From Mycobacterium sp. ITM-2016-00316 (GTDB lineage Bacteria > Actinomycetota > Actinomycetes > Mycobacteriales > Mycobacteriaceae): a stretch of 64,000 nucleotides of DNA. Positions 35,247 through 40,194 of the stretch are shown here, in pieces. The stretch spans positions 682,001 to 746,000 of the forward strand of contig NZ_CP134398.1 in the NCBI RefSeq assembly GCF_002968335.2, written 5' to 3'. Under the pieces are notes generated by a model, which was not told where the DNA came from, searched no databases, and saw only the letters and a program-made list of their open reading frames with translations. A program made the position numbers and the translations under genes. Each line of letters opens with the position of its first letter. Positions within the stretch are counted from its first letter, which is position 1.

Positions 35247-36569
35247 GTGAGACCTACCGGTGAATGTGAAGGCGCCCAGCTGAGTCGGCGTCGTGCGCTC
35301 ACCATCCTGGGTCTCGGCGGCGCCGGCTTCCTCGCCGCCTGCTCGAGCACCTCAGGGACGGGCACCAGCGCACCCGAGCCCACCGACGAAGCATCGGCAC
35401 CGAGCATCACCCTGACCCCCGATGACGCGTCCGCCGATGTGGTGCCGACCGCCGCGGCCGGGGCCACGGTCAGCGACGGCTGGTTCCAGCGCATCTCGCT
35501 GACCAATGCCGCGGGTGAACCGGTCGACGGAAAGCTCAACCGCGATCGGACCGAGTTCACTGTCACTGAGCCGCTGGGCTACGGCGGCGACTACACCTGG
35601 ACCGGTTCGGTGGTGGGCCGTGACGGTAAGGCGGTTCCGGTCACCGGCGGGTTCAGCACCGTCAACCCACAGACCAGGGTGAGCGGCGTGTTCCAGCTCG
35701 CCGATCATCAGACCGTCGGGGTGGCCGCGCCGATCATCCTGCAATTCGACGCCGCCATCGCCGATGCGGACAAGGCCACCGTCGAGAAGGCGCTCACGGT
35801 CACCACCACTCCCGAGGTGGAGGGCAGTTGGGCCTGGCTGCCCGACGAGGTCGGCGGCTCCCGGGTGCACTGGCGCACCAAGGACTACTACCCGGCCGGC
35901 GCCACCGTGCACGTCGACGCGAATCTCTACGGGGTGTCCTTCGGCCCGGATGCCTACGGCGCCGCCGACTCGACGCTCGACTTCACCATCGGCAGACGCC
36001 AGGTGGTCAGGGCCGAGGCCTCCAGCCACCGCATCCAGGTGCTCGACGGTGCCGGCGCGGTCATCATGGACTTCCCGTGCAGCTACGGCGAAGGCGACCT
36101 GGACCGCAACGTCACCCGCAGCGGCATCCACGTGGTCACCGAGAAGTACGAGGACTTCTACATGACCAACCCGGCCGCCGGGTACGCCAACGTGCGGGAG
36201 CGGTTCGCGGTCCGGATCTCCAACAACGGCGAGTTCATTCACGCCAACCCGGCCAGTTCCGGTGCGCAGGGCAACACCAACGTCACCAACGGCTGCATCA
36301 ACCTCTCGCTCACCGACGCCGAGCAGTACTTCAACACCGCCATGTACGGCGACCCGGTCGAGGTGACCGGCACCCGCATCGACCTGTCCTACGCGGACGG
36401 CGACATCTGGGACTGGGCCGTGCCGTGGAGCGAGTGGACGTCCATGTCGGCGCTCAGCAGCGACGACCCGCCGGCGAACATCCCCGTCACCGCGCCGGTC
36501 ACCCCCAGCGATGCCCCGACGCTGTCGGGGACGCCCACCACGACGCCGGTTCCTACCCCCGGCGGTTGA
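35247..36569 (+). CDS. lprQ: L,D-transpeptidase lipoprotein (LdtMt5/LprQ-like)
   Basis: 440 residues. The signal [21 protein letters not shown] has a twin-arginine-like RRR and a lipobox ending at Cys. Immunoglobulin-like domains follow, then the YkuD catalytic domain with the active site [10 protein letters not shown] ... [11 protein letters not shown] containing the nucleophilic cysteine; the more usual SHGC is TNGC here. A threonine/proline-rich tail ends the protein. It makes 3-3 peptidoglycan cross-links in the envelope. Its place after murB matches Rv0483. Its 3' end overlaps the convergent SDR gene by 17 bases. Confidence 0.94.
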
Positions 36570-37311
36570 CGCGGGAACCGGTCGCGCCGGTGACCTGGTC
36601 ACGCGGGCGCACCACGATGAGATCCAGGTCGACGTGCGCAGGCCGGCTCGCGACGAATCCGATGACCTCGGCGATGTCCTCGGCCACCAGTGGTTCCACC
36701 CCGGCGTACACCTTCTCGGCGCGCTCGGCATCCCCGTCGAACCGGTTCAGCGAGAAGTCGGTCTTGACCATTCCCGGCGCCACCTCGGTGAGCCGCACCG
36801 GCTTGCCGAACAGCTCGCTGCGCAGTGTGCGGTGCAGGACACCCTGGGCGTGCTTGGCCGTGGTGTAGCCAGAACCGTTGTCGTAGGTCTCCAGTGCGGC
36901 GATCGAGGTGACGGTGACGATGAGTCCGTCACCGGAGTCGATCAGCTTGGGCAGCAGCGCTTTCGTCACGTGCAGGGTGCCCAGCACGTTGGACTCCCAC
37001 ATCCAACGCCAGTTCTCGATGTCGGCGTCGGCCACCGACTCCAGCCCGCGTGCGCCGCCGGCGTTGTTGACGAGCACATCCACCCGGTCCAGGCGCTCGG
37101 CCAGCGCCGCCACCGCGGCCGGATCGGTGACGTCCGCCACAATTGCGGTGCCGTCGATCTCGGCGGCCAGCGCCTCGATGGGGCCGGGCCGTCGTGCCAC
37201 GCAGATCACGTGAAATCCCTGTGCAGCAAGCGTTTTGGCGGTTGCTGCACCGATTCCGGCACTGGCTCCGGTGACTACCGCGACGCGGCGCCGATCTGTT
37301 GAGGTCGTCAT
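36553..37311 (-). CDS. Short-chain dehydrogenase/reductase (Rv0484c-like)
   Basis: 252 residues. Classical SDR: cofactor motif [34 protein letters not shown], catalytic serine in TVTSIAAL and YxxxK as YTTAKHA. Substrate unknown. The ATG at 37311 is 7 nt from a TAGGGT -10, preferable to an in-frame start eight codons upstream. Confidence 0.92.
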
Positions 37312-37318
37312 GGTGACA

Positions 37319-37324
37319 ACCCTA
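37319..37324 (-). promoter_or_regulatory. -10 element TAGGGT for the SDR gene
   Basis: On the minus strand TAGGGT ends 7 nt before the ATG at 37311, consistent with leaderless transcription. Confidence 0.45.
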
Positions 37325-37366
37325 ATCCCGGGCATCTGACCTTCGCGCGAGCGCCGGCGGGCGTGC

Positions 37367-37372
37367 TACGTT
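37367..37372 (+). promoter_or_regulatory. -10 element TACGTT for the polycysteine leader ORF
   Basis: TACGTT ends 6 nt before the GTG at 37379, so transcription should start at the leader ORF itself. Confidence 0.55.
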
Positions 37373-37378
37373 GACGGC

Positions 37379-37456
37379 GTGTTCTCGATGAGTCAGGCGA
37401 GCGTTCTCGCCGCGCGGTGTGCGTGTTGTTGTTGCGCACCCGCCGCGCCCTGCTGA
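37379..37456 (+). CDS. Leaderless polycysteine leader peptide upstream of the ROK regulator and mshA
   Basis: A 25-residue ORF beginning GTG TTC TCG ATG and ending in ARCACCCCAPAAPC then TGA. It has six cysteines, four of them consecutive (TGT TGT TGT TGC) plus two flanking. It sits directly behind a TANNNT -10 with the 6-nt spacing of leaderless mRNAs and 78 nt before the ROK regulator gene. Polycysteine leaderless small ORFs are described in mycobacteria as cysteine-responsive attenuators: ribosomes stall on the cysteine codons when cysteinyl-tRNA is scarce and change the folding of the downstream RNA. The target here, mycothiol synthesis, consumes cysteine. Function is inferred; the ORF and promoter are seen directly. 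Confidence 0.75.
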   Translation: MFSMSQASVLAARCACCCCAPAAPC

Positions 37457-37478
37457 CCCCGAGGACCATTTCGTCCCG

Positions 37479-37532
37479 CTGAGTCGCCGGTGTGGCAGAA
37501 GCCCACCCACCCCGACTCAGACCAGAGGACTC
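37479..37532 (+). promoter_or_regulatory. Candidate attenuator stem with competing GACTC arms before the ROK gene
   Basis: CTGAGTCG (37479-37486) pairs perfectly with CGACTCAG (37513-37520), extended by GGTG/CACC. A second GACTC at 37528-37532 overlaps the AGAGGA ribosome-binding site and could pair with the same GAGTC, hiding the site. Such mutually exclusive pairing fits attenuation by the upstream leader ORF; no U-run follows, so translational control is more likely than termination. Confidence 0.45.
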
Positions 37533-37534
37533 CC

Positions 37535-38827
37535 ATGACCACCATCGCTGCCCCTCCCGCCGCCGCTCGTCAGACCCCGGCCGCGCACGCCAAGCGCGCC
37601 CTGTTGGCCCGGCACCAGATCGTCGCGCCGTCGCTGAAGGTGGCCGATGCGGCGGCCGCATCGGTGTTCGGTGCCGTCCGTCAGCGCGGCCCGATCGCCC
37701 GTGACGCCATCGCGCGCGTCACCGGGCTGAGCATCGCCACGGTGAACCGCCAGGTCACCGCCCTGCTCGAGGTCGGAGTTTTGCGTGAACGCGCGGATCT
37801 CGCGGTGTCCGGGGCCATCGGTCGCCCGCGCGTCCCCGTCGAGGTCAACCATGAGCCGTTCCTGACTCTGGGCCTGCACATCGGCGCCAAGACCACCAGC
37901 ATCGTGGCCACCGATCTGTTCGGACGGACCCTCGACGTCGTCGAGACCCCGACCCCGCGCGGTCCCCAAGGCGCCGCGCTGGCAGCACTGGCCGGCAGTG
38001 CCCGCCGCTACCTGAGCCGATGGCACCGCCGCCGCCCACTGTGGGTGGGTGTCGCCGCCGGTGGCGTCGTGGACAGCACCTCCGGCTACCTGGACCATGC
38101 CCGGTTGGGCTGGACGCAAGCGCCGGTCGGCCCGGTGTTGGCCGAGACGCTGGGACTGCCGGTGTCGGTGGCCTCGCACGTCGACGCCATGGCCGGCGCC
38201 GAGTTGTTGCTCGGCGGGCGTCGTCCGGGCGCGCAGGCCGGTACCAGCCTCTATGTCTACGCCCGCGAGACGGTTGGCTACGCGCTGTCCATCGGCGGCC
38301 GCGTGCACTCGCCATCGAGCGGTCCAGGCACCATCGCCGCGCTGCCGGCGAGTTCCGAGTTGCTCGGTGGCACAGGTAAATTGGAGTCGACAGTGAGCGA
38401 CGAAGCGGTGCTGAACGCGGCCCGCGACCAGCGCATCGTGCCGGCCGAGGGCCCCGCGTCGACGCTGCCTGCGGTGCTGCGCGCCGCCCGCGGCGGCCAT
38501 GAGGGCGCCCACGCGCTGCTGGCCGAACGGGCCAGGGTGCTCGGTGAGGCGGTGGCGCTGCTGCGCGACATGCTCAACCCCGACGATCTGGTGGTCGGCG
38601 GTCAGGCCTTCACCGAGTACCCGGAGGGAATGGAGTCGCTCGAGCGCGCGTTCGCGGCGCGGACCGTGCTGGGACCCCGCGATATCCGGGTGACCGCGTT
38701 CGGGAACCGGGTGCAGGAAGCGGGTGCCGGTGTGGTGTCGCTCGGCGGTCTCTACGCCGATCCGATCGCCGCCATGCGCCGCGCCCAGCTGCGCCGCGGC
38801 GAAGTGGGTGTGCTGGGCGCATCCTGA
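37535..38827 (+). CDS. ROK family transcriptional regulator (Rv0485-like)
   Basis: 430 residues. An N-terminal winged helix-turn-helix ([43 protein letters not shown], about residues 47-89) joined to a ROK sugar-kinase-like domain starting [19 protein letters not shown]. The zinc-binding CxCGxxGC of active ROK kinases is absent. Rv0485 is reported to regulate PE/PPE genes in M. tuberculosis; here the position before mshA suggests a joint transcript. ATG at 37535 has AGAGGA five bases upstream. Confidence 0.88.
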
Positions 38828-38871
38828 TACCTCGGGTGTGGTCAGCTCGGCGCAGGTGTAGACATGTCATT

Positions 38872-40194
38872 GTGCGCGCCGTCCCAGAAACGCCCGGACT
38901 GAAGGACACTGCCCGTCGCGTTGCGGTGCTCTCGGTGCACACCTCGCCGCTGGCCCAACCCGGAACCGGTGATGCCGGCGGCATGAACGTCTACGTGCTG
39001 CAGACCGCGCTGGAGTTGGCCCGCCGTGGTGTCGAGGTCGAGATCTTCACCCGGGCCACCTCGTCGGCGGATGCGCCACTGGTCCAGGTCGCGCCCGGAG
39101 TGCTGGTGCGCAACGTGGTGGCAGGCCCGTTCGAGGGGCTCGACAAGAACGATCTGCCCACCCAGCTGTGCGCGTTCACCGCGGGCGTCCTGCGCGCCGA
39201 GGCCACCCACGAGCCCGGCTACTACGACATCGTGCATTCGCACTACTGGCTGTCCGGGCAGGTCGGATGGCTGGCCGCCGACCGCTGGGCGGTGCCGCTG
39301 GTGCACACCGCGCACACCCTTGCCGCGGTGAAGAACGCCGCGCTCGCCGAGGGTGACGCCCCGGAGCCCGCGCTGCGCGCGGTCGGCGAGCAGCAGGTGG
39401 TCGACGAGGCCGACCGGCTGATCGTGAACACCGAAATCGAAGCGCAGCAGCTGGTTTCGCTGCACAATGCGGACCGCCGGCATATCGACGTGGTGCATCC
39501 CGGGGTGGACCTGCGGGTTTTCACACCGGGGGACAAGCAGGCCGCGCGGGCGGCGCTGGGGCTGAGCGCGGATGCCAGGATCGTGGCCTTCGTCGGGCGT
39601 ATCCAGCCGCTCAAGGCACCCGACGTGTTGCTGCGCGCAGCCGCCCGGCTGCCCAGCGTGCAGGTGGTCATCGCAGGCGGACCTTCCGGCAACGGCCTCG
39701 CGACGCCCGACAACCTTGTTCGGCTCGCCGCCGAACTGGGTATCACCGACCGCGTGACATTCATTCCACCGCAGTCCAGGGATGCCCTGGTCCAGGTGTA
39801 CCGGGCCGCCGATATCGTCGCGGTCCCGAGCTACAACGAGTCGTTCGGTCTCGTCGCGGTCGAGGCCCAGGCCTGCGGCACCCCGGTGGTGGCCGCGTCG
39901 GTCGGTGGTCTGCCGGTCGCCGTGCGCGACGGGGTGAGCGGCACCCTGGTCGACGGGCACGATGCCGGGGACTGGTCGCAGGCGCTCGGTGCGCTTTTCG
40001 AGCGTGGCCCCGAGACGATGGGTGCCGCCGCCGTGGCGCACGCCGCGACGTTCTCCTGGGCGCACACCGTGGATGCGCTGCTGGACAGCTACACCCACGC
40101 CATCACCGACTACCTCGCGCGGCATCCCCGCCGTGAACCCGCCGGGCGTCGCAACGGTAGGCGGTTCGCGCTGCGCAGGGGAGTGCGGGCGTGA
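38872..40194 (+). CDS. mshA: D-inositol-3-phosphate glycosyltransferase MshA
   Basis: 440 residues. GT4 family: N-terminal [47 protein letters not shown], the UDP-sugar binding [14 protein letters not shown] and the EX7E-type [23 protein letters not shown]. It transfers GlcNAc from UDP-GlcNAc to inositol-3-phosphate, the first step of mycothiol synthesis. GTG at 38872 gives the family-like start. It lies 44 nt after the ROK gene and overlaps the following YbjN gene by four bases (GTGA). Confidence 0.96.

Follow-up and report, generated by a model that had tools for sequence, protein, structure and literature searches.

The leader ORF and its neighbours

The window, by which we mean the whole 64-kb stretch of DNA analysed here, belongs to a genome of 5.99 Mb and carries on its forward strand a short leader ORF (sORF), a gene for a ROK-family regulator, and mshA. 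The sORF is preceded by the -10 element TACGTT (37367..37372), taken from sequence only as a leaderless promoter and separated by six bases from the GTG at 37379. The ORF itself (37379..37456) has 25 codons followed by TGA (37454-37456) and reads VFSMSQASVLAARCACCCCAPAAPC. Four consecutive cysteine codons, TGT TGT TGT TGC, occupy 37424..37435, with further cysteine codons at 37418-37420 (TGT) and in the last position before the stop (TGC, 37451-37453). The next gene (37535..38827) begins with an ATG 78 nt past the sORF stop and encodes the ROK-family regulator (PF00480, 53.9 bits, cut-off 22.9), which by position and kind is the orthologue of Rv0485/Msmeg_0932. The mshA gene, for D-inositol-3-phosphate glycosyltransferase, is assigned here to 38872..40194 (TIGR03449, 656.3 bits, cut-off 462.5), with its GTG start 1,415 nt from the sORF stop. 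The layout given in the first-pass annotation of this DNA, from TACGTT and the 6-base gap through the 25-codon GTG ORF with its four cysteine codons and TGA to the 78-nt gap, is exact by coordinates, and the roughly 1.4 kb that it gave between the sORF and mshA agrees with the distance from the stop to the assigned start.

The leaderless start that characterizes polycysteine attenuators appears to be present in the window sORF, which is also the first ORF before the conserved downstream gene, that of the ROK regulator. The -10 element of the relatives is mostly GTGCTAAGTT or GTGCTAAATT. When both strands of the 64 kb were scanned for ORFs of 6-45 codons that have TANNNT 4-9 nt before ATG or GTG and at least three consecutive cysteines, this sORF was the sole match; ten first-order Markov windows used as a control gave one match in total. 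A mechanically called ORF of 117 aa (window 37308-37661) overlaps the sORF on the opposite, minus strand. Predictions on the minus strand over these uORFs had no transcripts, according to the accessible portion of Shell et al. (2015, PMC4633059).

Conservation among mycobacteria

The relatives compared here are a chosen sample, made up of the best 80 of 297 plus 69 of the 230 genomes with a match. The resulting 150 regions upstream of ROK orthologues comprise 80 named GTDB loci, 29 other loci, 40 picked stretches, and the window. These sets overlap, with 19 groups of identical leaders. ROK starts were assigned by script in each relative, except that of L050, which was set by hand, and the terms window clade, rapid grower, and slow grower are labels assigned in this analysis. 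The closest ROK proteins among the best 80 of 297 come from Mycolicibacterium bacteremicum, M. neoaurum, and Mycolicibacterium sp. P9-22.

A leaderless Cys-rich sORF, counted as a TANNNT element, 6-7 nt, a start codon, and then a short ORF containing three or more cysteines, is found in 147 of the 150 regions, the window included. In the other three a contig end cuts off the upstream DNA, so that the sORF is present in all 147 regions with enough DNA, which represent 127 distinct leaders. The frame is conserved as well. In a frame-blind test in which the RTG was taken 5-8 nt after the -10 element (L006 was not usable), the longest TGY run lies in frame with the first RTG in 123 of 126 leaders, and the lengths of the spacer between stop and ROK start favour no frame (residues 46/43/38 across the 127 leaders). 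The assignment of the sORF by the first-pass annotation to the kind of leaderless polycysteine leader reported in mycobacteria as a cysteine-responsive attenuator is supported. The sORF is real and is kept in nearly every examined mycobacterium that has the ROK gene. That it is a chance ORF without function is refuted by this conservation; both the count of regions and the frame test stand against chance, no support for it was found, and its probability is negligible.

The sORF also follows the fate of the ROK gene in unusual genomes. Ten genomes of the weak-ROK set have a ROK match at E<=1e-40, whether whole, broken, or displaced, and all ten keep the sORF; in G115, where the ROK gene has decayed, the sORF is absent. 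In G230 (L246, L258) most of the ROK gene is apparently missing, with only ROK residues 327-422 matching, and an sORF lies about 500 nt upstream of mshA. Two identical leaders from near relatives of the window (L006, L090) have a cysteine run decayed to CACRC and have kept the promoter, the ORF, and the RNA arms described below. Another group (L125-L128) has a 37-codon sORF with scattered cysteines (CCRCVCRCA) that still begin 9 codons before the stop.

The sORF is already published. Whether the locus had been studied was left open in the first-pass annotation; the M. tuberculosis and M. smegmatis orthologues appear in Figure 7B of Shell et al. (2015, PLoS Genet, PMC4633059). The accessible portion of that paper describes conserved leaderless sORF orthologues before Rv0485/Msmeg_0932 and similar small proteins upstream of cysA2/Msmeg_5788 and nirA/Msmeg_4527, notes their enrichment in cysteine, and proposes cysteine-directed attenuation. 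On that portion of the paper, the published uORF and the window sORF are alike in position, downstream orthologue, leaderless start, richness in cysteine, and conservation, and the window copy is an orthologue; the downstream gene is called hypothetical there, and the RNA layout, mshA, and mycothiol are absent from it. Attenuators of the same general design come from the work of Canestrari et al. (2020), which according to the accessible parts of papers citing it (PMC9094748, PMC9031893, PMC13236596) found that Cys-codon sORFs regulate in M. smegmatis. As described there, these attenuators share with the window leader the leaderless start, the consecutive cysteine codons, and a position upstream of a gene or operon, whereas the downstream gene at the window locus is a regulator.

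Geometry and codon choice of the cysteine run

Total sORF length is spread from 13 to 37 codons across the 127 distinct leaders, yet the distance from the start of the cysteine run to the stop is 9 codons in 73 leaders and 10 in 37 (110 of 127 together). Such a steady distance from run to stop, set against the varying length, points to a constraint on the position that a paused ribosome takes up with respect to the stop. The longest run has four cysteines in 61 leaders, three in 48, two in 13, five in three, six in one, and a single cysteine in one (L006), and is at least three in 113 of the 127. Codon choice within these ORFs is also distinctive, with a TGT:TGC ratio of 405:124 in 119 distinct sORFs compared with 27:102 in 52 CDS-like ORFs that were chosen mechanically from the window. 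The ROK gene sequences read alongside these sORFs, many of them cut, hold 10 cysteine codons, all of them TGC.

The tail of the sORF seems to matter as RNA. In the window clade, which accounts for 9 of the 104 rows of the alignment A1 described below, the number of bases before the tail differs, and the stretch GCCGCGCC is consequently read in another frame: in the window it gives A-A-P (APAAPC) instead of R-R-A, with the bases kept. Retention of the tail bases in a different frame argues for an RNA role of the tail rather than a peptide role. This observation bears on the idea that the sORF encodes a functional small protein, rich in cysteine, that binds metal or takes part in redox chemistry and acts in trans. 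The conserved cysteine residues favour such a protein, but most of the other residues vary, the length is free to range over the spread given above, and the change of frame in the window clade leaves the bases rather than the residues intact; we regard a functional small protein as very improbable.

RNA arms in the leader and spacer

Alignment A1 contains 104 distinct leaders; the remaining 23 of the 127 (L125-L147) were left out for their differing spacers and are reported apart. Five candidate helices, A to E, can be drawn through the leader. The 5' arm of helix A is GCCGCGCC in the stop-proximal codons (37442..37449), and its partner GGTGTGGC (37489..37496) is common to helix A and helix B, the 3' arm of the latter being GCCCACC (37501..37507). 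Helix C joins GAGTCG (37481..37486) to CGACTC (37513..37518). Just past the stop, GGAC within GAGGACC (37463..37466) resembles a Shine-Dalgarno (SD) sequence and forms the 5' arm of helix D. Its partner GTCC (37473..37476) is common to helix D and helix E, and the 3' arm of helix E is the SD of the ROK gene itself, GAGGAC (37525..37530). The helices fall into two sets. Set 1 consists of helix A (GCCGCGCCTG with CAGGTGTGGC) and helix D (post-stop GGAC with GTCC); set 2 consists of helix E (GTCC with the SD), helix C (GAGTCG with CGACTC), and helix B (GGTG.GG with CCCACC). Because GGTGTGGC and GTCC are common to both, the two sets are mutually exclusive.

Both sets are well kept in A1. For set 1, 91.9% of cells are paired (94.9% for helix A) compared with 36-50% in slid versions, and for set 2 the figure is 89.9% compared with 41-52%. 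Covariation in set 1 is weak, with 4 pairs changed on both sides compared with 3.7 in shuffles and 9 cells compared with 5.9; its covariation score is reached by 4 of 500 shuffles, helices A and D together do better than shuffles on only two of five measures, and slid versions have up to 29 cells changed on both sides compared with the 9 of set 1 itself. Set 2 has 8 cells changed on both sides compared with 2.7 in shuffles (0/500), and its slid versions reach 26. Covariation carries limited weight here because conservation is high. RNAalifold, unprompted, draws helix A only (7 pairs). For the sORF tail, a partner that at most 5 of 100 shuffles can equal exists in 86 of the 104 A1 leaders and 12 of the 23 left-out ones. 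Among those 23, eleven leaders (L129, L134-L137, L140-L143, L145, L147) have spacers of only 50-61 nt, in which helices C, D, and E are absent by eye; when folded as single sequences, L134 and L140 have the 5' part of the sORF paired with the SD region.

Searches for known RNA families added little. Two Rfam matches in 36000-39500 are both far below the gathering score and outside the leader, and a tRNA scan gave nothing useful. A model of the leader structure, R1, has no second copy in the window genome (G000), and negatives with this model are weak because it missed a copy known to exist in G088, the genome from which L128 comes. Marginal R1 matches in two ROK-less genomes (G085, G002) and in one of another genus (G307) were dropped as chance; none of the three loci has a 6-45-codon ORF with a three-Cys run or CC.C.

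Folding models

When the spacer is folded alone, the ROK SD of the 104 A1 leaders is unpaired at 0.165 compared with 0.38 in shuffles. This unpairedness is below the shuffle mean in 93 of the 104, and in 61 no more than 5 of 50 shuffles are as low; the 23 left-out leaders show no closure (0.412 compared with 0.43). For the window itself the isolated spacer leaves the SD unpaired at 0.50, above the 0.31 of shuffles, and closure in the window clade would therefore need a ribosome at the stop. Single-sequence folds of the window spacer fit such an arrangement. In the fold of the entire spacer, the post-stop GGAC is the partner of GTCC, and the SD is unpaired in the centroid (z -3.56, 0/200 shuffles), with a weak local 4-pair stem touching the SD in the minimum-energy fold. 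Once the 10 nt that directly follow the stop are taken away, the partner of GUCC is the SD (z -4.06, 0/200 shuffles).

Two schemes compare a ribosome on the cysteine codons with one at the stop. If folding is limited to RNA downstream of the ribosome, predicted unpairedness of the SD across the 104 leaders is 0.235 for a ribosome on Cys and 0.169 for one at the stop; it is higher on Cys (up) by more than 0.1 in 30 and lower (down) in 7. In this scheme the window has 0.47 on Cys compared with 0.23 at the stop, the window clade has 5 up and 0 down of 9, and contrast is almost absent from the 23 left-out leaders (3 up, 1 down). Helix A in the stalled model reaches only 0.22 across 99 leaders and is 0.0 in the window clade, where the contrast comes from helix D versus helix E; a single A-versus-B switch for all species was rejected accordingly. 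If the full leader is folded with the ribosome masked, stall and stop are nearly alike, with means of 0.171 and 0.155 and, at a threshold of 0.05, 21 up and 13 down of 104. The full-leader result counts against a switch. The two schemes disagree in strength, and the contrast in the downstream-only scheme is moderate. An RNA switch, considered by itself, is on these models a tentative proposal with somewhat less than an even chance of being right.

The leader could instead act by premature transcription termination, for example of the Rho-dependent type, and not by hiding the ROK SD. This is rather unlikely. In the A1-type leaders the conserved pairing of GTCC with the SD favours control of translation. 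A search of 37300-38950 for a stem-loop followed by a T tract gave three hits only, all on the cysteine codons (37411-37426) and none in the spacer. Termination does gain support from an mBio paper of 2014 (PMC4128351), in whose accessible part the M. marinum and M. bovis orthologues of Rv0485 are among the genes with a high 5' UTR to CDS ratio, and such ratios are read by its authors as support for transcriptional attenuation. Poor translation of the ROK gene and termination could also act jointly. Both M. marinum and M. bovis, however, belong to the slow-growing species, and the leaders with short spacers may be of that kind.

mshA and mycothiol

Mycothiol contains cysteine, and the first-pass annotation saw in the sORF a device that couples cysteine supply to mycothiol synthesis via mshA. 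In the window the ROK gene and mshA are adjacent, co-oriented, and 44 nt apart, as would be expected if the sORF controlled a ROK-mshA operon and cysteine supply set mycothiol synthesis through mshA. This coupling is unlikely, given the sequence before mshA and the distribution of the sORF.

Directly before mshA stands TGTAGACAT-N4-GTG (window 38857-38874), which includes the -10-like element TAGACA (38859..38864) and follows a conserved pattern. The pattern, TGTA[AG]NNAT-N3-8-GTG, was written after seeing such loci. Of 121 distinct Mycobacterium loci, 113 have it, namely 11 of the 13 without ROK and 102 of the 108 others; in controls it occurs in 1 of 2,420 mononucleotide shuffles and in none of 23 loci from other genera. 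At least three of the eight mshA loci without the element (L024, L055, L073) look cut before the start codon. The spacing fits a leaderless promoter, and the element looks like a putative promoter of mshA's own. A direct link between the sORF and mshA is doubtful because mshA seems to have this promoter.

Genomes without the ROK gene offer a second view. An absent or weak ROK match characterizes 27 genomes, 16 of which show none at E 1e-15; setting aside two without an mshA match and G075, which has a decayed ROK gene (tblastn), leaves 13 ROK-less Mycobacterium genomes. All 13 have mshA, and none has a leaderless polyCys sORF in the roughly 1.46 kb scanned upstream of it. A single deletion of adjacent DNA could have removed ROK and sORF together. 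What these genomes show is therefore that mshA manages in the absence of the device; they do not show that ROK needs the sORF. In six of the 13 loci (L229, L231, L233, L234, L238, L239) a short CC.C ORF overlaps the mshA start region; these were not counted, as the stretch tested before them has no TANNNT. Genome G029 (L159, L249) separates the two genes, with ROK and sORF 3.8 kb from mshA, and here the sORF stays with ROK. The mshA of G029 retains a TGTAAAGAT-GACT-GTG element.

The arrangement is likewise missing from the other genera examined. ROK adjoins mshA in none of 23 loci and in none of 19 deeper upstream stretches, and the 23 loci have no leaderless polyCys sORF before mshA. The 19 deeper stretches include short ORFs with a CCC run in L205, L206, L211, and L221, with no TANNNT in the preceding 18 bases printed. 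A literature search, with most subscription journals outside it, found no link between the sORF and mshA or mycothiol. The coupling to mycothiol is weakened by the element that mshA has for itself even in ROK-less species, the 13 genomes that have mshA without such an sORF, and the association of sORF with ROK in G029. The device most likely serves ROK, and mshA may receive read-through from the leader across the 44-nt gap.

A proposed cysteine-responsive attenuator of the ROK gene

The sORF is probably a cysteine-responsive translation attenuator, that is, a uORF that controls the ROK gene. The proposal builds on features observed in this analysis: the sORF with its frame and cysteine codons, the geometry of the run, the conserved arms, and the element before mshA. 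With the mRNA 5' end at or next to the GTG, the ribosome would start on the sORF without an SD. When cysteine is plentiful, it would pass the cysteine codons and proceed to the stop, covering the tail of the sORF together with the bases that directly follow. With the ribosome in that position, GTCC would pair with the ROK SD atop the hairpin of helices C and B (set 2), and the ROK gene would be poorly translated; polarity or early termination may come after. When Cys-tRNA is short, the ribosome would pause earlier, at the TGT run that begins 9-10 codons ahead of the stop. The post-stop GGAC would then be free to capture its partner, and the ROK SD would open. In some relatives the freed sORF tail might also pair with GGTGTGGC during the pause. 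Transcription of mshA would start from its own leaderless-type element, with at most some extra read-through from the leader. The predicted direction of the response follows leader-peptide logic and published reports, and we infer the stalling and the RNA switch along with it.

A further and more speculative possibility, which we hold slightly less probable than the RNA switch taken by itself, is that a two-layer switch specific to Mycobacterium, made of the sORF-tail arm and the SD look-alike, gates ROK by cysteine and not mycothiol synthesis, and that other congeners rebuilt the input with a shorter, different RNA. The target of the sORF was earlier taken as hypothetical or as mycothiol synthesis, and the data place the device on ROK, of the Rv0485 type. 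The gain is a concrete RNA model with rivals that can be separated. As cited in the accessible part of PMC4128351, Rv0485 regulates PE13/PPE18 in M. tuberculosis. In the literature accessible here, the conserved distance from cysteine run to stop, the RNA layout with the SD look-alike, and the separate mshA element were not found.

Related leaders and other cysteine-run sORFs

The proposed attenuator resembles known leader systems in part. In the uORF leaders of the erm and whiB7 type, the position of a ribosome in the leader ORF likewise decides the fate of the downstream gene, but the signal there is a drug, while that proposed for the window leader is an amino acid and its spacer has no terminator-like site. 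The trp and ilvB leader-peptide attenuators also have a short leader ORF in which successive codons specify the amino acid that regulates them. The window leader differs from them in having no T-tract terminator in the spacer, in its leaderless start, and in a next gene that is not one of cysteine biosynthesis.

Two other cysteine-run sORFs are present in the window's genome. The fetched flanks of two strong PF01406 matches (L185, L186; cysS or mshC by kind) contain no leaderless sORF with three consecutive cysteines. An ATG sORF, MAAVTAAVDSTTRIALVVRRHVDLKRICSCCCPS, ending in CSCCCPS* (L204 867-971), lies upstream of a cysH-type gene (PF01507 match, L183), in front of a putative nirA; the 18 preceding bases printed contain no TANNNT. 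A leaderless-type polycysteine sORF, VTARLELLLTKRRAVDLCRTAGCCCCCSC, ending in AGCCCCCSC* (L191, L197; L191 394-483, at about 5.07 Mb of G000:C1), lies about 0.6 kb before an ORF for a two-domain rhodanese.
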